A stretch of 64,000 bases of DNA from Gluconacetobacter tumulisoli (lineage in GTDB: Bacteria > Pseudomonadota > Alphaproteobacteria > Acetobacterales > Acetobacteraceae), in NCBI RefSeq assembly GCF_014174155.1, contig NZ_JABEQM010000002.1, positions 186,001-250,000 of the forward strand. The letters run 5' to 3'. Position numbers and translations under genes: made by a program. The notes below the pieces were generated by a model. That model was given only the letters and a program-made list of their open reading frames with translations. It was not told the origin of the DNA and made no database searches. Position 1 is the stretch's first letter. Every line of letters begins with the position of its first letter. Below are positions 5,677 through 60,554 of the stretch, in pieces.

Positions 5677-6683
5677 GCGGCGCCGAGACGACACAGGCGA
5701 TCGGACCTGCCGAGGCAGGGCGGACGCACGCGCCGGCCACGCCGCGTCGCGCGACGCGCGCGCTCCGGCATATTGTCCTGCCATGGGCCGCCGGTCCGGC
5801 ATGGTTCGTCGCGTCCCTGCTCACCTGGCGCGTGCCGGACGCCGACGATTTTCCGGACACGAACGAACTGGCCGCCCTGTTCGCCGGTATCGGCGTGGCG
5901 CTGCTGGCGGCGGCGGCCCTGCGCCGGCTGTCGGCGCGCGCACCGTGGATGATCGCGCTGGGCCTGGGCCTCGCGACCTGGGAAGTCGCGCAGGCCAAGC
6001 TGCTGCTGCTGCCGCGCCCGTTCTTCGGAACGCCGCAGGACCTGCTGGACGTTTTTCTGACCGACTGGAAACGGCTGGGCGACAGCCTGCTGCATTCGCT
6101 GGGCCTGCTGGCGGTGGGCTACACGGTCGGTTCCACGCTGGGCATCGCCACCGGCGTCGGGCTCGGCCGGTCGCGGCACTTCCGCTACTGGGTGCTGCCC
6201 GTCGTCCGCCTGGTCGGCCCGCTGCCGCCGGTGGCCCTGCTGCCGCTGGCCTTCGTGCTGTTCCCCTCCAACTGGCTGGCCAGCGAGGCCCTGATGGCGC
6301 TTGCCTCCGGCTTTCCCGTCACCATCCTGACCTGGTCGGGCGTGGCGGCGGTCGATCCCGCCTATTACGACGTCGCCCGCACCATGGGCGCGCGAAACCG
6401 CTTCCTGGTCCTGCGCGTGGCCCTGCCGGCGGCGTCGCCGCAGATCTTCGTCGGGCTGTTCATGGGGCTGGGCATGTCGTTCGCGATGCTGGTGATCGCC
6501 GAGATGCTGGGCGTGAAATCCGGCCTGGGCTTCTACATGCAATGGGCCCAGGGCTGGGCGGCCTATCCCGACATGTATGCCGCGCTGCTGGTCATGTCGG
6601 CAATGTGCACCGGCCTGATCACCATCCTGTTCCGGGTGCGCGACCGGCTTCTCGGCTGGCAGAAGGACGGGCTGAAATGGTGA
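5673..6683 (+). CDS. ABC transporter permease (SsuC/TauC-like)
   Basis: A 336-residue membrane protein with about seven hydrophobic segments. The BPD_transp_1 domain occupies roughly residues 130-330, with the EAA loop visible as YYDVARTMGARNRFLVLRVALPAASPQIF. The N-terminal 90 residues add two extra membrane segments, as in many SsuC/TauC relatives. It overlaps the binding protein by 4 nt and the ATPase by 7 nt, so the three genes form one importer operon. Confidence 0.88.
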   Translation: MSGAETTQAIGPAEAGRTHAPATPRRATRALRHIVLPWAAGPAWFVASLLTWRVPDADDFPDTNELAALFAGIGVALLAAAALRRLSARAPWMIALGLGLATWEVAQAKLLLLPRPFFGTPQDLLDVFLTDWKRLGDSLLHSLGLLAVGYTVGSTLGIATGVGLGRSRHFRYWVLPVVRLVGPLPPVALLPLAFVLFPSNWLASEALMALASGFPVTILTWSGVAAVDPAYYDVARTMGARNRFLVLRVALPAASPQIFVGLFMGLGMSFAMLVIAEMLGVKSGLGFYMQWAQGWAAYPDMYAALLVMSAMCTGLITILFRVRDRLLGWQKDGLKW

Positions 6684-52943: not shown

Positions 52944-54074
52944 TCACGCACGTCCTTTTGCGACCTCTCGCGTTTCTCCCGTTCTTCTTTTCCGTAAAAA
53001 ATACATCCATGTGCCAGTCGCGAAGAGAAACGTGACCGACAGGCTGGATACGACCATGACGATCTGCCCGGGCAGGCCAAGGAAGCTGCCGCGATGGACC
53101 TCGAACATGCTGGTTGCGATAACCGCGCCCGCATTTCGATTTCTATAAAGGTCGATTTTGATCTGGCGGCCGTCCCGGGCGTCAAAGTAATAATCGTCCG
53201 TCATATGCCCATGCCGGGCATGGGCTGCGAGGCGCGATATCCTTATGGGGTTGCCGTGCGCTGCCATGAAGATGGTCGCGGCGCCGAAATCGGGCTCAAC
53301 ATTCGCGTCAAACCGGGACCACACCGTCCCGTAAACCGCCGCCCCGTAAACCGCCGGCGTCGAGACGACCGCAGGACGCGGCCTCTCGGGTACGGCGTCC
53401 AGCAGATGCTGCACCCCGCTGCGATACCAGCCGTATGACCACCACAGTGCGGTCAATCCGCTGACGAGGTACAGGATCGCCCCCCAGCCTCCAATGACGG
53501 CATGGAGATTCCGGTAGAGAGGCGCCCCGCGACGCCTGAAATCGATGGCAAACCACGGTCGCCAACTGAAAGGCTTGCGCGGCCAGCGGAGATAGATCCC
53601 GGAGAGAGACAGGTACACGACGCACAGGGCAGCAATAGCTGTAATCTGGCGACCCGGGCCGGACCCACGCCCGGGCAACGCGAGGAAGCGGTGGATGTCT
53701 TCCACACAATCGAAGAACGATTGTCCATTGCGCGCGCCAATGATGCGGCCGTCTCGCGGGTCGATGTAGATTTCCCGCTCGCGCATCCAGGGCCGTTCTC
53801 CGGCCAGCCGCAAACGCCAGGAGCGACGATGGTCGGAATAGATCGTCAGTCGCTCGACCCTGAACCGGGGATCGGCACGACCGACCCGTGCAAGAAGGTC
53901 GTCAGGGCGCAGGAAGGGCGCTTCGGCCCCCGTCAGACGGACGACATGAGGGCTGAGACTGTCCATCATGCCGTCTTCGAAACTCAGCATGGCACCCGTT
54001 GTGGCCATGACGGCCACAACAGCCCCAAAAGTCAGGCCGAGCCATCTATGTATAGATGACAGAACCGCACGCAT
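52944..54074 (-). CDS. PepSY-domain membrane protein (PiuB-like)
   Basis: A 376-residue protein with the PepSY-associated four-helix layout: SSIHRWLGLTFGAVVAVMATTGAML, then a PepSY-like periplasmic part (RVERLTIYSDHRRSWRLRL, REIYIDPRDGRIIG), helices ITAIAALCVVYLSLSGIYLRWP and LHAVIGGWGAILYLVSGLTAL, and LSVTFLFATGTWMYF at the end. Several membrane His residues (IHRW, VHRG, NLHAV) could bind heme. Relatives act as ferric-siderophore reductases beside TonB receptors. It is divergent from a siderophore receptor. The ATG at 54074 or 54101 are both possible. Confidence 0.85.
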   Translation of the reverse strand: MRAVLSSIHRWLGLTFGAVVAVMATTGAMLSFEDGMMDSLSPHVVRLTGAEAPFLRPDDLLARVGRADPRFRVERLTIYSDHRRSWRLRLAGERPWMREREIYIDPRDGRIIGARNGQSFFDCVEDIHRFLALPGRGSGPGRQITAIAALCVVYLSLSGIYLRWPRKPFSWRPWFAIDFRRRGAPLYRNLHAVIGGWGAILYLVSGLTALWWSYGWYRSGVQHLLDAVPERPRPAVVSTPAVYGAAVYGTVWSRFDANVEPDFGAATIFMAAHGNPIRISRLAAHARHGHMTDDYYFDARDGRQIKIDLYRNRNAGAVIATSMFEVHRGSFLGLPGQIVMVVSSLSVTFLFATGTWMYFLRKRRTGETREVAKGRA

Positions 54075-54258
54075 TTTTACGTTATCGATCCCCAATATCA
54101 TCTACATGTTCACAAATGCGTCACAAACGCACAATAGAAAACGGCAATAGACGCACGTCCACCTGAATCGTCATGTCCGCCCTGCCCCTACGCTTCGTTG
54201 CGTTGCGTTTCCTTGCGGTATGCAAACCTTCTTTACATAGCGTGCGAGGCCTGTCAAA

Positions 54259-54275
54259 GAATGACAATCATTCGC
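54259..54275 (+). promoter_or_regulatory. Fur-box-like site upstream of the siderophore receptor
   Basis: GAATGACAATCATTCGC contains GAATGA-N3-TCATTC and agrees with the Fur consensus core AATGATAATCATT at all but one position. It sits 15 nt before the ATG at 54291 and suggests iron repression of the receptor, possibly of the divergent PepSY gene as well. Confidence 0.6.
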
Positions 54276-54290
54276 AACATGGTGACGCTG

Positions 54291-56495
54291 ATGCGCTCGT
54301 TATGGTCCGTTCCCGCTGTCTGCTGCGCTCTGGCTTCGGCCGCGTGGGCGGAGCCCGCCACGGCGCAATCCCTATCGGGTAACGTTTCGGAAACCTCGCC
54401 CAAGGCCAGGAACCCTCCCTCCCGGAAATCGAAGGCTCCTCAGAAGACCGATGTGCGCAGCGACGCCGTCGAGATTGGCGAGCACATCGACGTCCGGGGA
54501 TCGCGGCAGGGGTTCAAATCGGAAGCCGTCCAGATCGGCTCATTTCGCAACCAGTCCATCCTGGAAGCGCCGATGATCGTGACCGTCGTGAACAGGGCGC
54601 TGCTCGACGCGGAAGGCGCCCAGTCCATGGAGGAGGCGATGCGTAATTCGCCCGGCCTCACGGCGATGGCGACGCCCCCGTTCATCGCGCCGACCTTCAT
54701 GGCCCGCGGTATCCAGATCCAGGGCCGGACGAATTACCGGCTCGACGGCACGCTGCCCATTATTTCGTTCACGCCGATCCCGATGGAAGACAAGGAGGCC
54801 GTGGAGGTCCTGAAGGGAGCATCCGCAATTTATTACGGCTTCTCAACCCCGTCGGCCATGGCGAACTTCCGAATGAAGCGGGCCGGATCCAGGCCCGTCA
54901 CGGACCTCACCCTGACCGGAGACAGCCAGGGCAGCTACGGCGGGGGTGTCGATTTCGGCCGGCAGGTCGGCAAGGACAGGCAGTTCGGTTACCGGATCAA
55001 CGTGTACGGCACGCATATCGTCGCCCCTGTCGATGGAATCGACGGATATCGCTGGCTCACCTCCGGCGCGTTCGACTGGCGCCCCACGGAGAAGCTTCAG
55101 TTCAAGCTGGATGTGGAGCATTACCAGCAGGTCATGGACAACCCGGGCGGCCTGATCGTTCCCTCGGCGGTGGGCGCCGTCAACGGCGTCGGCGGCCATA
55201 TTGCCCTTCCGCGCATACCGCGCATCTACAACAGGTACGCGCCCATCAATTCGCCCTTTGACACCGCCGCCGACAACGCATTGGGCCGCATCGACTACGC
55301 CATCTGGCGGGACTGGAGCCTGCGCCTCGAAGGCGGTCTGGCGCGGGACACACGGGCCCGGAGTGGACCGTACGTGCAGAACTACAATGTCGTGACGGGC
55401 TGGGGAAAGGAATCGGCATATTACGAAGGGGACGAAGTCTACTACAACGTGAACGCCAGGGCGGAAATATCCGGTTCGTTCAGGACATGGTTCATCAACC
55501 ATGAAACTGTATCCGGCTATACCAGAAACGACCAGATTCAGGACAACCATCCGCAGATCACGTACGCCACGTTCGACCAGAACATCTACCATCCCGTCCA
55601 GATGGATATGCGAAACATGAAGGTCGTAAGCGCGAAGACGGCCTATGGGGCCGAAAATACCGACAACGGCCTCTATTTCATGGACAAGGCCCGCATGGGG
55701 AAGCACGTCATCGTGACCGGCGGGTTCCGATACGAGATTTATAAAACCCTGCAGATGAAGGACAACAGCTCCTACAGCCTGGACCGGATAACGCCTTTCG
55801 GGGCTCTCAACATCCTTCCCATCAAAAGCCTCTCCCTGTATGCCTCCTATATCGAGGGGCTTGAAAGCGCCGGCACGGCACCGAATTCCGCATCGAATTC
55901 CGGTTCCATTCTGCCACCTTCGGTCAGCGAGCAATATGAATTCGGCGGAAAATGGGATACCGGGAGAGGCCTCCTCTCGGTTGCGTATTTCCACATCAAT
56001 CACGCCCTCGCTTACACAAATACCAGTGGCGTCTACGTGACGAACGGCAGGGCCGTTCACAAGGGCATCGAAGCGTCATACCAGGGAAACATCACGAAGG
56101 AAGTGTCCGCCCAGCTCTCCGGCACATGGATAGACGCCGTCCAGAAAAACACCGGATATGATTATGAAGATAACAAGAAGGTTCTGAACGTCCCAAAATG
56201 GGCCGCCTCGGCGTTCGTCCAGTACACGCCGTCCTTCTTCCCCAGGCTTTCGGTCAACGCGGGCGTGAACTACATCGGTGCGCGACCGCTGGACGTGCAG
56301 AACCTGGCGACCATTCCGGGCTACGCAATCATGAGCGCGGGCGCCAGCTATCGGACGAAGATGGGGGGACACAACATCGTCTTCAGGGCAAACGGCAACA
56401 ACATAACCAATGCCCGCTACTGGGCCTCGGGCGACGATATCCTGTTCGTCGGCATGGGCGCCACCGCCCATTTCTCGGCAACGACCTCTTTCTGA
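54291..56495 (+). CDS. TonB-dependent siderophore receptor
   Basis: A 734-residue receptor: signal peptide MRSLWSVPAVCCALASAAWA, a basic linker, plug domain (SFRNQSILEAPMIVTVVNRALLDAEGAQSMEEAMRNSPG, MARGIQIQGRTNYRLDG) and a barrel ending GATAHFSATTSF, as in FhuA/FpvA-type proteins. The TonB box is probably in GEHIDVRGSR. In-frame ATGs at 54261 and 54279 lie in or next to the Fur-like box, so 54291 is preferred. Codon use is less GC-biased than elsewhere in the window. It imports a ferric siderophore of unknown type. Confidence 0.9.
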   Translation: MRSLWSVPAVCCALASAAWAEPATAQSLSGNVSETSPKARNPPSRKSKAPQKTDVRSDAVEIGEHIDVRGSRQGFKSEAVQIGSFRNQSILEAPMIVTVVNRALLDAEGAQSMEEAMRNSPGLTAMATPPFIAPTFMARGIQIQGRTNYRLDGTLPIISFTPIPMEDKEAVEVLKGASAIYYGFSTPSAMANFRMKRAGSRPVTDLTLTGDSQGSYGGGVDFGRQVGKDRQFGYRINVYGTHIVAPVDGIDGYRWLTSGAFDWRPTEKLQFKLDVEHYQQVMDNPGGLIVPSAVGAVNGVGGHIALPRIPRIYNRYAPINSPFDTAADNALGRIDYAIWRDWSLRLEGGLARDTRARSGPYVQNYNVVTGWGKESAYYEGDEVYYNVNARAEISGSFRTWFINHETVSGYTRNDQIQDNHPQITYATFDQNIYHPVQMDMRNMKVVSAKTAYGAENTDNGLYFMDKARMGKHVIVTGGFRYEIYKTLQMKDNSSYSLDRITPFGALNILPIKSLSLYASYIEGLESAGTAPNSASNSGSILPPSVSEQYEFGGKWDTGRGLLSVAYFHINHALAYTNTSGVYVTNGRAVHKGIEASYQGNITKEVSAQLSGTWIDAVQKNTGYDYEDNKKVLNVPKWAASAFVQYTPSFFPRLSVNAGVNYIGARPLDVQNLATIPGYAIMSAGASYRTKMGGHNIVFRANGNNITNARYWASGDDILFVGMGATAHFSATTSF

Positions 56496-56600
56496 GGCAG
56501 TGGAATTCATTGGAAATAATTTGAAATTTTCCATGATGAGATCGGACCGAGCGTCCTGCCGCAGTGCAGGATCTGCCGGCATGGCGGTCTGAGGAAACGA

Positions 56601-56735
56601 TCAGGAATGGCGGTGGACCCATGATGGTTTCCTGTCCGCGAGCGGCGCGCTGTCCCACACGCCAGCGCTGACGAAGTGATGCAGCCGATCTTACGGAACC
56701 TCGCCCGCGACGACCTCGGATGGCGCGGCGACACG
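56601..56735 (-). pseudogene. IS701-like transposase remnant
   Basis: In one minus-strand frame (56640-56690) the peptide DRLHHFVSAGVWDSAPL resembles the RLHHF...WD..PL block of IS701-family transposases. It is preceded by a stop and followed by another after 30 nt, so only a short scrap remains. The rest of the 56496-56794 gap has no recognisable gene. Confidence 0.45.
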
Positions 56736-56794
56736 GAATTAAAGTCGCCGCCAGCTATCGCATACCTGCTTCCGCGCTACACTCGTCATCAATT

Positions 56795-57379
<585 letters not shown>

Positions 57380-57415
57380 CGTATCCTTCCATTTCGATGG
57401 TCGCGGAAGGATACG
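57380..57415 (-). promoter_or_regulatory. Hairpin sequestering the eno ribosome site
   Basis: On the minus strand CGTATCCTTCC pairs perfectly with GGAAGGATACG (11 bp, 14-nt loop), and the 3' arm containing AAGGA ends directly at the ATG. It lies just downstream of the riboswitch aptamer, so it is a good candidate for its translational expression platform. An additional 6-bp hairpin GCGACA/TGTCGC separates the two. Confidence 0.65.
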
Positions 57416-57446
57416 AATCTCCTGCCGCGACAACACATGTCGCATA

Positions 57447-57496
57447 GGCAGGAGTCATCGGCCCCGAGGGCGGTTACGGGAGGAACTCCATCTCCC
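57447..57496 (-). ncRNA. Fluoride riboswitch (crcB motif), leftward
   Basis: Read on the minus strand, GGGAGATGGAGTTCCTCCC forms the first hairpin with the conserved ATGG and GTTC bases, then TAACCGCC, and the 3' conserved CGATGACTCCTGCC. This is the order and spacing of the crcB/fluoride motif (GG.GATGG.GTTC.CC, ACCGC, GATGA..CCT). It lies 67 nt upstream of the decayed eno start. Confidence 0.8.
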
Positions 57497-57591
57497 TTTC
57501 ACGTTCAAGGCGTGGTCGTGGCCCTTTTCATGGTCAAGCGTGCCTGACCGCGTCGCCCCGCACATCCCGCCAACGGCATGGCTTCCAACAC

Positions 57592-57621
57592 TTGACAAGG
57601 TCCGTCGTTCACTGGTGATAT
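57592..57621 (+). promoter_or_regulatory. Putative promoter for the usp-crcB unit
   Basis: TTGACA and TGATAT are separated by 18 nt. Transcription would begin near 57628, right at the first base of the rightward riboswitch, which is typical for such leaders. Confidence 0.55.
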
Positions 57622-57628
57622 CGACGAT

Positions 57629-57700
57629 GGCAATGGATTCTGCCTGATCGCCGCAAGGCGGTCGAACCGCTTCCCTTGTGGAAGCTGATGATTCCTACCC
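57629..57700 (+). ncRNA. Fluoride riboswitch (crcB motif), rightward
   Basis: GGCAATGGATTCTGCC matches the first conserved hairpin, then an extra hairpin (ATCGCCGCAAGGCGGT), the conserved AACCGC, and GCTGATGATTCCTACC as the 3' element. A downstream stem GGGGAGGA (57714-57721) with TCCTTTCC (57735-57742) might be the expression platform. It precedes a universal stress protein gene and crcB, both known fluoride-regulon members. Confidence 0.8.
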
Positions 57701-57786
57701 TGCGGGCTTGCAAGGGGAGGAATCTGTCCGGTTGTCCTTTCCTCATCGTATGGCTCCGTTATCGACCGTTGCGGGAGAACGACGTC

Positions 57787-58620
57787 ATGCGCCTTCTGAT
57801 TGTTCTGGACAGACCCGATACTGCGCTCTTTACGCTCAAGACGGCGGGTGCTTTGGCCGAACGGTTGCATGCGGATCATATTCGCATCCTGCATCCCCGC
57901 CTTGCGGACAATCCCGCGTTCCAGACTCCCGATGAGGGGATGCCGACCACGGGGGAACAGCAGCGTTTCGCTCGCGAGGTGACCGAACGCGCCGACAAAT
58001 TGCGTGAAATAGCCTCTGCCTGGATGGGGCCGGCGCCAGCCGGCGTGCGACATCAACCCGACAGGCAATGGGTCGAAATCGCGGGGGACGTACGCAAGAT
58101 CGCGGCGCAGGAAGCGCGAAGCGCCGATTTCGTCATTCATGGCCGCCCTCGTGCGGGCGATCCGGGCTATGTCGCGGACGCCTTCGCGGGCATCCTCTAT
58201 GACGCGGAAGCCACGCTGGTTGTCGCCCCGCTTCAGGACTATTCCTCCGTCGGGCGGAGGCCGGTGATCGGATGGCGTCCCTCTCGCGCGCTCGACAATG
58301 CCATCGCGGCCGCCATGCCCCTGCTGGAAGCCGCCGAACGCGTAACCCTCATTATCGGCGAGCATGCCGGCACCAGGACGAAGCTGCCGGAGTTCACCGA
58401 CGCCCTGGCCGACCGAGGCGTAAAGATCATTGTCGACCGGTTCAGGATCGATGGAGACGGCGACGTTGGCGAGCAGATTCGTGCCCATGCCCTGGCCGCC
58501 AATGCCGACCTCCTCATCATGGGTGCCTATACCCGGCCGCATTTTCTCGAATGGCTGTTCGGCGGCCCCACACAGGATGTGTTCGCCCACGCCACCCTGC
58601 CGATCCTGACCCATCACTGA
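57787..58620 (+). CDS. Universal stress protein, tandem UspA domains
   Basis: A 277-residue protein with two Usp-like halves: MRLLIVLDRPDTALFTLKTAGALAERLHADHIRIL and RPVIGWRPSRALDNAIAAAMPLLEAAERVTLIIGE, ending with ALAANADLLIMGAYTRPHFLEWLFGGPTQDVFAHATLPILTHH, where MGAY and the FGG loop mark the nucleotide site. USPs of this layout are common next to crcB under fluoride riboswitches. The ATG at 57787 has GGGAG 9 nt before it; an in-frame ATG at 57676 lies inside the riboswitch and is excluded. Confidence 0.9.
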   Translation: MRLLIVLDRPDTALFTLKTAGALAERLHADHIRILHPRLADNPAFQTPDEGMPTTGEQQRFAREVTERADKLREIASAWMGPAPAGVRHQPDRQWVEIAGDVRKIAAQEARSADFVIHGRPRAGDPGYVADAFAGILYDAEATLVVAPLQDYSSVGRRPVIGWRPSRALDNAIAAAMPLLEAAERVTLIIGEHAGTRTKLPEFTDALADRGVKIIVDRFRIDGDGDVGEQIRAHALAANADLLIMGAYTRPHFLEWLFGGPTQDVFAHATLPILTHH

Positions 58621-58675
58621 ATATTGAAAAAGAGCGTTCGCAGCGGCTGAGCATGCGGGCCTGGAGGATATATCC

Positions 58676-59128
58676 ATGACGTCTGGCTTTCTCACCCCGA
58701 TGTGGATCGCCGTCGCGGGCGCGATGGGAACATTGCTTCGTTATTACATGGGTCTTTTGACACTATCCTGGAGCCAGCGGCTACCGTGGGGCACAATCCT
58801 CATCAATGTGACGGGCTCCTTTGCCATTGCTTTCTTCAGTGCCCTGACGGCTGCTCACGCCCGCTTTCCCGCTTCGAACGAAACCCGGCTGATCGTCATG
58901 GCGGGGATCTGCGGTGGCTATACGACGTTTTCGGCCTTCAGCCTCCAGACCATCGATCTCGCCCGCGATGGCGCTCTGGGGCGCGCCCTGCTCAATATCA
59001 CCTTCTCACTGGTCCTGTGCCTCGGCGCCACGGCAGTCGGATATGTGTCCGCCGATGGGATCAACCAGCACTCTGCGGGTGCCCGCACCCCGCCCACGCC
59101 CGACCCTGTCACCCGGCAGGGCACGTAA
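58676..59128 (+). CDS. crcB: Fluoride channel/exporter CrcB (Fluc)
   Basis: A 150-residue four-helix protein: AGAMGTLLRYYMGLLTL, WGTILINVTGSFAIAFFSAL and GICGGYTTFSAFSLQTIDLARDG are the Fluc signature, including the Asn and Phe residues lining the pore. It exports fluoride as a dual-topology dimer. A GGAGGA site precedes the ATG. It is 55 nt after usp and under the rightward riboswitch. The C-terminal 25 residues are a hydrophilic extension (GINQHSAGARTPPTP). Confidence 0.95.
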   Translation: MTSGFLTPMWIAVAGAMGTLLRYYMGLLTLSWSQRLPWGTILINVTGSFAIAFFSALTAAHARFPASNETRLIVMAGICGGYTTFSAFSLQTIDLARDGALGRALLNITFSLVLCLGATAVGYVSADGINQHSAGARTPPTPDPVTRQGT

Positions 59129-59323
59129 GAACGAAACATCGGTCCATTTGTATATTACGGATGATATATTACGGCGCCCTGACGATTGCGACCTCTCGCG
59201 TTAACCGGCATCCCGTCTCGCAGGGCATTCAAGCCTGAATGCATTTCCCCTGACGGCTACGTGCTCTTGCACGCACGGAGCGGTCCGCAGGCCAAAGCCA
59301 TGGACATTGCTCGTACCGGCCTC

Positions 59324-59716
59324 CTATCCGCCGCGTGATCGCACATAGCGCGCAAGGTCCCCCGTTATCAGGTCCCAGTCGAGCGCCTCGCTCGTCCAGA
59401 CATGAAAGGTCGGAGGAATCGCATTCGGGTTGTCCAGGCTCACCGTCATGACGTCGAGTTCGCCGGGCGTGTCATCCCGGCGATAGGTCAGGGGGGACCC
59501 GCATCGGCCGCAGAAGCTCCGGATGACGCCGGGTGAGGAACTATAATCGACCGGCACACCGCGCGTGTAGCGAAAGCCCGCGGACAGCACGCCAACGAAG
59601 GGAAGTCGGGGCGACGATGCAGCACGCCGGCAGGTCTCGCAATGGCAGATGCCACTGCTGACCGGTTCGCCCTCGGCGATATAGCGCACGGCGCCGCAAA
59701 GACATCCACCCTCCAT
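59324..59716 (-). CDS. GFA family protein (CENP-V/glutathione-dependent formaldehyde-activating)
   Basis: A 130-residue zinc protein. Cys ligands appear in GGCLCGAVRY, ICHCETCRRAASS and FCGRCGSPLTYR, the standard GFA pattern. Family members bind glutathione or form S-hydroxymethylglutathione; most are uncharacterised. It stands alone between crcB and a GNAT gene. Confidence 0.9.
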   Translation of the reverse strand: MEGGCLCGAVRYIAEGEPVSSGICHCETCRRAASSPRLPFVGVLSAGFRYTRGVPVDYSSSPGVIRSFCGRCGSPLTYRRDDTPGELDVMTVSLDNPNAIPPTFHVWTSEALDWDLITGDLARYVRSRGG

Positions 59717-59881
59717 CTACCCCTCCGACATTGGCCGGTTCGACCATTTCACACAACCGACCTCATCATGGGCGGCATAAATCGACGCTACCCGGACGCC
59801 ACCTCGATTTCCGGACAGTCTCCAGGATAGGGTGCCTGCCATGTCTCTGATTGAAAGAAGAAAGCAGAGCCACGCATTCAC

Positions 59882-60343
59882 CTACTCCAGGTCGAGATGC
59901 AGAAATTGGTTGAAGCTGCTTGGTGTATAAAGGCCAAATGCTTCACCAGCCGTGAAGCCGTACCGACGATAAAGGGTCAGCGCCGGATCAAACGCCGCAC
60001 CGCGCCCCGTCTCCAGACTCGGGCGCCGGACCCCCCGGTTTTTTGCGGTCGCGATGATCGTGTCCAGAAGTGCGCGCCCCACGCCTTTTCGGACGAAATC
60101 GGGGTGCGTCCGCATGGATTTCACTTCGGCCATATCGGCCGACAGCATTTTCAATGCGCCTATCCCGGCGACCCGATCCTGACACCAGGCCGCCCAGACT
60201 GTCACGTCCGGAGTGGCGAGGCCGGACAAATCGAGAGCATAGACACTGTCGGGAGGTGACTGGGCACGCATTCCGGCAAGATGCAGCGCGAGCAATTCGC
60301 GCGTCTGCTCACCTGACAGATCGTCTTCGCGGATCTCGAACAT
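59882..60343 (-). CDS. GNAT family N-acetyltransferase
   Basis: A 153-residue acetyltransferase: VAGIGALKMLSADMAEVKSMRTHPDFVRKGVGRALLDTIIATAKNRGVRRPSLETG holds the acetyl-CoA loop (RKGVGRALL), and YRRYGFTAGEAFG the C-terminal strand. Substrate unknown. Start 60343 (MFEIRED) gives the usual N-terminal strand; the frame is open to an ATG at 60403. Confidence 0.9.
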   Translation of the reverse strand: MFEIREDDLSGEQTRELLALHLAGMRAQSPPDSVYALDLSGLATPDVTVWAAWCQDRVAGIGALKMLSADMAEVKSMRTHPDFVRKGVGRALLDTIIATAKNRGVRRPSLETGRGAAFDPALTLYRRYGFTAGEAFGLYTPSSFNQFLHLDLE

Positions 60344-60554
60344 GCGACTCGCCTCTCCGAACGGCATGAATAATATGTCCGCATTTTGCAGTAGAGAAAA
60401 CAAGCACCAATGCCGTCAATGACGGCGACAGCAGTAATACATCTCCTCCGGCCAATGCGGGCCTTTCACATATTCGCCCCCGGAAGCCGCCAACCCGCCT
60501 CCGGCCGATTGCAGACCCATCCGCACATCACGCAATCGCCCTTCGGCAACAGCC

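Follow-up and report, generated by a model that had tools for sequence, protein, structure and literature searches.

The fluoride-resistance locus described here is part of the window, by which we mean the whole 64-kb stretch of DNA that was analysed. A decayed enolase gene on the minus strand and a usp-crcB gene pair on the plus strand point away from a common intergenic region, which carries two fluoride riboswitch aptamers and two candidate -35 boxes. The features are as follows.

56852 to 57379, minus strand: remnant of eno, a fluoride-type enolase gene, with an in-frame TAG at 57049-57047 (Pfam, and match to a 468-aa ORF of Gluconacetobacter entanii).
57442 to 57504, minus strand: fluoride riboswitch aptamer of the eno side, canonical form (RF01734, 52.7 bits, E 9.3e-12).
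57532 to 57537, minus strand: TTGACC, candidate -35 box of a leftward promoter (TTGAC at -33 from the eno-side aptamer).
57592 to 57597, plus strand: TTGACA, candidate -35 box of a rightward promoter (TTGAC at -28 from the usp-side aptamer).
57620 to 57704, plus strand: fluoride riboswitch aptamer of the usp-crcB side, insert type (RF01734, 45.4 bits, E 2.3e-09).
57646 to 57663, plus strand: extra hairpin GATCGCC-GCAA-GGCGGTC, between the first stem and AACCGC, with covariation in relatives.
57787 to 58620, plus strand: usp, universal stress protein, 277 aa, intact (Pfam PF00582, E 2.2e-10).
58676 to 59128, plus strand: crcB, Fluc fluoride channel, 150 aa, intact (Pfam PF02537, E 2.2e-26).

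Both strands of the 64 kb were scanned with cmscan against 4227 families of Rfam 15, and exactly two matches at gathering scores were obtained in the whole window, both to RF01734 and on opposite strands, with no other family represented at such scores. Each match is full-length (1-64 of 64) and exceeds the RF01734 gathering score of 34 bits, the usp-side one with a 17-nt insert, and each is located in the 5' leader of a fluoride-resistance gene, namely the eno remnant on one side and usp-crcB on the other. The 5' ends of the two aptamers face each other across a gap of 115 nt without overlap, a separation which rules out a single element read on both strands. The conserved motifs of the eno side are GATGGAGT at 57492-57485 (minus strand) and GATGACTCCT at 57459-57450 (minus strand), and those of the usp side are CAATGGATTC at 57631-57640 (plus strand) and GATGATTCCT at 57687-57696 (plus strand). 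An earlier sequence-only reading had announced two divergent fluoride riboswitches in this intergenic region and had proposed the RF01734 covariance model on both strands as a check; both copies indeed score above the gathering threshold, and the motifs it quoted for both strands are found at the coordinates just given.

The fold was examined in an alignment of 45 aptamers chosen from the survey of relatives described below, 44 of which are distinct. In these 44, 97.8% of the cells of the two stems and the pseudoknot are paired, and 55 show changes on both sides; none of 500 shuffles reached either value and every slid version was far lower, keeping in mind that the compared leaders and aptamers are related and that shuffle counts overstate their independence. 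One of five covariation measures, that of further pair types, was no better than shuffled in the 44 aptamers. The pseudoknot joining loop 1 to the 3' end comprises 5 pairs with 97.6% of cells paired and both-sides changes at 2 pairs, and its fourth pair has no letter in 10 of the 44 rows and is unpaired in 2 more. On these sequence grounds both aptamers look like genuine members of the known class RF01734, and the pair represents a known type of switch in an arrangement that recurs, not a new type.

The extra hairpin that had been noticed on the rightward copy, between the first stem and ACCGC, is present at 57646-57663, where it falls inside the 17-nt insert of the covariance alignment, and relatives show covariation that supports it. 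Across 19 distinct insert-type aptamers, picked by pattern (the window copy and the non-insert-type L013, L020 and L023 being outside the set), 104 of 114 cells are paired over the first six positions of the hairpin arms. Shuffles gave a mean of 86.7 and a maximum of 97, with 0 of 5000 as high, a count that is not a probability since the sequences are related. The loop of the insert-type copies is changed as well (GGA-[T/C]TC) and their 3' end mostly reads GATTCCT, so that most of them have lost the fourth pseudoknot pair. Within the window pair, the insert hairpin and the GATTCCT variant are found on one side only. The possibility of a new aptamer class was considered and dropped because inserts at the same place also occur in rows L172-L175, outside the family; the insert is thus treated as a structural subtype.

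The flanking genes agree with what had been read from the sequence, with Pfam domains of Usp and then CrcB on the right and a decayed eno on the left. The eno start at 57379 is intact and the remnant matches the 468-aa ORF of the G. entanii island up to residue 63 and again over residues 321-464, the offset between the two matches giving a deletion of ~266-269 codons. In terms of domains, Enolase_N 2-32 is joined to Enolase_C 158-228, followed by 233-288 past the TAG stop, and the full Enolase_N and Enolase_C are not found in one open frame of this gene. A complete 426-aa eno is present elsewhere in the genome (G000:C6). The longer piece of the remnant is 80% identical to the entanii island enolase and only 54% to the housekeeping one, hence it is of the island type. 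When the entanii island enolase was used as query in 14 Gluconacetobacter genomes, the 13 congeners gave one match each, at 55-56%, with a fluoride-type eno found in 0 of 13, and a second eno copy (the remnant) was seen only in the window's genome. Usp of the window shares 83% identity with its Acidomonas counterpart and, over two pieces, 83% and 88% with that of entanii; among the congeners, nine have a best match at 53-59% and the remaining four stay below 30%. Furthermore, GC content is 0.56-0.63 over 53000-60500 against 0.66-0.74 in the flanks. Taken together, the absence of a fluoride-type eno from the congeners, the Usp identities and the GC contrast point to horizontal acquisition followed by eno decay, and the module looks horizontally acquired.

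The low-GC segment 53000-60500 holds a PepSY gene and a TonB receptor gene together with the fluoride module, and is perhaps one acquired island; the best full-length match of the PepSY gene in the 13 congeners is 27% identical. An origin from an Acidomonas-like island (in the order eno, riboswitch, riboswitch, porin, then riboswitch and usp-crcB) by loss of the porin segment was considered, and the comparison of the gaps gave only short weak matches (best E 0.016). A larger island in L083/L163 consists of eno, a riboswitch pair, an alginate-export-type porin, riboswitch usp-crcB, a 184-aa gene, DUF211 and a histidine phosphatase facing CLC across a second riboswitch pair, and dynamin-like and MutS_V-like genes are found past eno in L163. 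Probable frameshifts place eno in two frames in L163 (4190-2803) and usp in two frames in G. entanii (L073, 6622-5797); given these, the island genes may decay repeatedly.

In a survey of 397 Acetobacteraceae genomes RF01734 was found in 146 and, among the matches listed, divergent pairs with gaps of 75-178 nt were found in at least nine (G000, G034, G035, G074, G186, G204, G217, G263 and G408, the partner aptamer of G217 being a partial match), with wider pairs of 465-657 nt in G074, G134 and G285. Scans of contigs add G177 (84 nt gap, partner at 39.0 bits) and G130 (177 nt gap, partner exactly at the 34-bit threshold). A survey of 299 genomes of the order, which overlaps that of the family, found RF01734 in 137 and adds, among the matches listed, G454 (two pairs), G459 and G470. 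Pairs with a gap of 178 nt or less are present in at least 14 genomes of the family, the window's genome included, pair counts from the family and order listings being lower bounds. At the scale of the phylum, RF01734 was found in 67 of 398 sampled genomes, with all 78 matches listed, and the only close divergent pair among the 67 positives is that of the window's own genome, in a sample where weak partners could be missed given that surveys of more than 40 genomes used stricter filters losing weak matches. The description of the back-to-back pair as unusual is hence accurate for the phylum sample, where it is rare, but not for the Acetobacteraceae, where it recurs.

A search for Usp in named genomes confirmed at least 523 relatives, and 80 loci were kept, 17 with a fluoride riboswitch and four with a divergent pair: Acidomonas methanolica (two pairs), G. 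entanii, Acetobacter lambici and Sphingobium estronivorans (258 nt); the first two are the genomes G074 and G177 already counted above. G. entanii (L088/L073) exhibits the same eno/usp-crcB divergent pair with eno intact. A crcB/usp pair is carried on plasmids by Kozakia baliensis, Acetobacter ascendens (with usp cut by the record start), Gluconobacter oxydans 621H and G. thailandicus. Other observations concern the wider neighbourhood of these switches. Eight genomes (G130, G217, G285, G254, G094, G169, G074 and G263) have 6 to 12 fluoride riboswitches each, in riboswitch-run fluoride islands. The window's genome has a third one, single and upstream of a second crcB (L056, 7847-7912, plus strand). 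In G. diazotrophicus (L084, 4712-4775, minus strand) the riboswitch beside usp-crcB faces MutS_V-like genes, and no second fluoride riboswitch was found there on the usp side. Adjacent gene pairs of one cluster are seen on the fluoride-riboswitch contigs L061, L062, L066, L067 and L069, and three tested members of this cluster match MutS domain V; an association of mutS with the crcB motif is mentioned in PMC2864571. In another genome of the family, a sul1 RNA (RF03058, 68.9 bits; L072, 4017-4072, minus strand) is located near a fluoride riboswitch and crcB.

As for promoters, TTGAC is found between -36 and -22 in 29 of 34 hand-chosen leaders, compared to a mean of 0.38 and a maximum of 4 in shuffles. 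The five leaders without it are the entanii eno leader, the MutS side of G. diazotrophicus, both Kozakia leaders and the third riboswitch of the window's genome. The leftward TTGACC lies in a stretch of 17 nt that matches the Acidomonas eno/porin gap at 88%, a weak match (E 0.016). A strict sigma-70 scan returned no promoter site, and the -10 boxes are weak, without clear consensus. The -35 boxes, being placed back to back at 57537-57532 and 57592-57597, suggest two promoters, and judging from these boxes the intergenic region seems to have a separate promoter facing outward on each side and not one that both sides share. The pair had been said to flank one promoter region; this stands for the common intergenic region but probably not for a single promoter.

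Four hairpins were predicted downstream of, or overlapping, the aptamer 3' ends.

57380 to 57415, minus strand: hairpin B, predicted by folding to hide the eno Shine-Dalgarno GGAAGG (57390-57385).
57400 to 57431, minus strand: predicted anti-sequestor hairpin C (GUCGCGGCAGGA..UCCUUCCGCGAC), from a partial-transcript fold.
57419 to 57454, minus strand: alternative hairpin A (CUCCUGCC..GGCAGGAG), from the apo fold, overlapping the eno-side pseudoknot strand.
57690 to 57724, plus strand: alternative hairpin GAUUCCU..AGGAAUC, from apo folds, competing with the usp-side pseudoknot strand.

On the eno side, the apo fragment folds into hairpin A at -24.6 kcal/mol in the window, with the same value in entanii and -22.7 in Acidomonas, and the region 57380-57460 comprising hairpins A and B has a fold z of -7.25. 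Hairpin B keeps its pairs against entanii; in the alignment, judged by eye, one pair is altered on both sides and another has become a wobble pair. With the pseudoknot strand left out, hairpin C is the best partial-transcript fold in the window, entanii and Acidomonas. In the complete eno leader of the window, however, hairpin B (-34.6 kcal/mol) is favoured over hairpin C (-23.3 kcal/mol), and barring the pseudoknot strands did not open hairpin B in any of three species, so that a simple equilibrium ON state was not obtained. Since B is stabler than C at equilibrium and stays closed, the predicted ON state of the eno side must be kinetic or ribosome-helped. An AUG at 57445 (minus strand) opens a 22-codon extension in frame with eno (57445-57380), which is also open in entanii and Acidomonas; its reading as a coding leader was set aside in favour of RNA structure, as the differences between window and entanii look non-synonymous while the pairs of hairpin B are kept (by eye, with no statistic).

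On the usp side, the competing hairpin is formed in apo transcripts of 10 of 10 insert-type leaders at 45 nt and of 7 of 10 at 110 nt; the three leaders that lose it include that of entanii. The z-scores of the usp-side folds are modest (-2.18 and -1.51) and no ribosome-site helix common to the usp-side relatives was found. Mimicking the pseudoknot, by leaving out five bases or barring them from pairing and without modelling the aptamer itself, changes the folds of the eno leader in three species and of 10 usp/CLC leaders.

We consider it probable that the locus is a horizontally acquired fluoride-resistance module with two outward promoters, each reading into its own fluoride riboswitch. Most likely, on the basis of the predicted folds, these are two fluoride ON-switches driving opposite operons, with one side now orphaned, and their output is probably controlled at translation. 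Without fluoride, the alternative hairpin would form and expression would be low; once fluoride is bound, in the form of a Mg-fluoride complex, the strand common to the alternative hairpin would stay in the pseudoknot, so that fluoride would raise expression on both sides at once. For eno, where hairpin B would hide GGAAGG before the AUG, translation is the likely output: once hairpin A is blocked, its 3' arm could pair with the 5' arm of B to give hairpin C, leaving the ribosome site open during RNA synthesis. Higher levels of Usp and of the CrcB exporter are still to be expected from the right switch, and the left one, its enolase gene being dead, would now control nothing evidently useful.

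Several other readings of the pair have to be weighed against this one. The motifs are short and the RNAalifold structure of these aptamers has few pairs (8), which could speak for one or both being chance or model artefacts; E values of 9.3e-12 and 2.3e-09 over both strands of 64 kb and 4227 families, the fitting genes on both sides and the corresponding pair of G. entanii make this extremely improbable. Two members of one class on opposite strands of a common intergenic region could also have arisen by inverted duplication of one riboswitch. However, the window aptamers are only 37.2% identical to each other over aligned columns, while the eno-side one reaches 88.9% identity with its eno-side counterpart in Acidomonas methanolica and 84.1% with that in G. 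entanii, and the usp-side one 85.9% with the usp-side aptamer of G. entanii and 78.8% with that of Acidomonas methanolica; moreover, the insert hairpin and the GATTCCT variant are confined to one side. Inverted duplication was rejected on these identities and is very unlikely. As each aptamer is closest to its own-gene counterparts elsewhere, we favour an inherited or transferred pair of distinct aptamers over a local duplication.

The questions of function are more evenly balanced. It is quite conceivable, if somewhat less than an even chance, that only the usp-crcB riboswitch still works and that the eno-side one is a relic decaying with its gene, given the loss of ~266-269 codons and the TAG in eno, the presence of only short ORFs on the leftward strand from the remnant to the end of the convergent TonB-receptor gene, and Pfam matches in 0 of 3 such ORFs tested. 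Yet the eno-side aptamer is the higher scorer of the two at 52.7 bits, its leader hairpins and -35 box are intact, and the gene may simply have broken recently. Control by transcription termination, intrinsic or Rho-dependent, instead of translation is slightly less plausible again: predicted terminators overlap many crcB-motif RNAs according to PMC2864571, and UGUCCGGUUGUCC comes after the long usp-side hairpin GAUUCCU..AGGAAUC, but a T-run terminator was not found in 56300-57850 (shuffles mean 1.2), and PMC5756330 gives the coverage of leader and ORF as similar for crcB of G. oxydans, which fits translational control. On these two points translational control is favoured, with termination as a serious rival. 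A more elaborate and rather unlikely proposal is that the two promoters and two aptamer subtypes, with different fluoride set-points, are a selected layout of acetic acid bacteria that would start the exporter operon and the metabolic-bypass gene at different doses, and that fluoride-dependent transcripts may still run from the orphaned leftward switch into the convergent TonB-receptor gene at its 3' end.

With two outward promoters, each reading into its own riboswitch, as the preferred reading, the locus is a small, naturally occurring example of one riboswitch class with two members facing outward from a single region. An intact-eno version (G. entanii) and a broken-eno version (the window) are available to compare, and the locus makes it possible to test directly if a riboswitch keeps working once its gene has died. 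The results also suggest that riboswitch-run fluoride modules move between acetic acid bacteria. Furthermore, the second riboswitch of a pair can be overlooked, as in G. oxydans 621H: plasmid pGOX1 (L076) has divergent riboswitches at 6147-6207 (minus strand) and 6385-6450 (plus strand), between usp and crcB, and the RNA-seq table of PMC5756330 contains a single fluoride riboswitch, at 152,387-152,452 on the crcB side, for which that study detected no start site. In the titles and abstract openings of the open-access literature, no description of a natural divergent fluoride riboswitch pair was found, and the two-riboswitch construct of PMC8814607 is presented there as artificial. As far as this search reaches, the back-to-back layout is undescribed, its parts being ordinary class members.

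Among known systems, the riboswitch-linked operon of Enterobacter cloacae FRM, in which ppaC, uspA, eno, gpmA and crcB are described as strongly fluoride-induced (PMC5533749), resembles the locus in placing usp, eno and crcB under a fluoride riboswitch on a genomic island (ppaC-uspA-eno-gpmA-crcB-orf5249). It differs in that one riboswitch and one direction are reported in that description, whereas the window has two divergent single-riboswitch leaders. The plasmids pGOX1 of G. oxydans 621H and pKB14400_1 of Kozakia baliensis resemble it in that two defence genes, usp being one, are separated by divergent fluoride riboswitches; unlike the window, they are plasmid-borne, have a gap of 177 nt and carry crcB in place of eno on the other side. 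Compared to RF01734 itself, both window aptamers have P1, AACCGC, P2, the pseudoknot and the 3' GATGAYTCCT, and both are upstream of fluoride-defence genes. What sets the window apart from the class is a pair of copies that point in opposite directions out of one intergenic region, together with two features of the usp-side copy: an additional covarying hairpin behind the first stem, and a fourth pseudoknot position that is changed.
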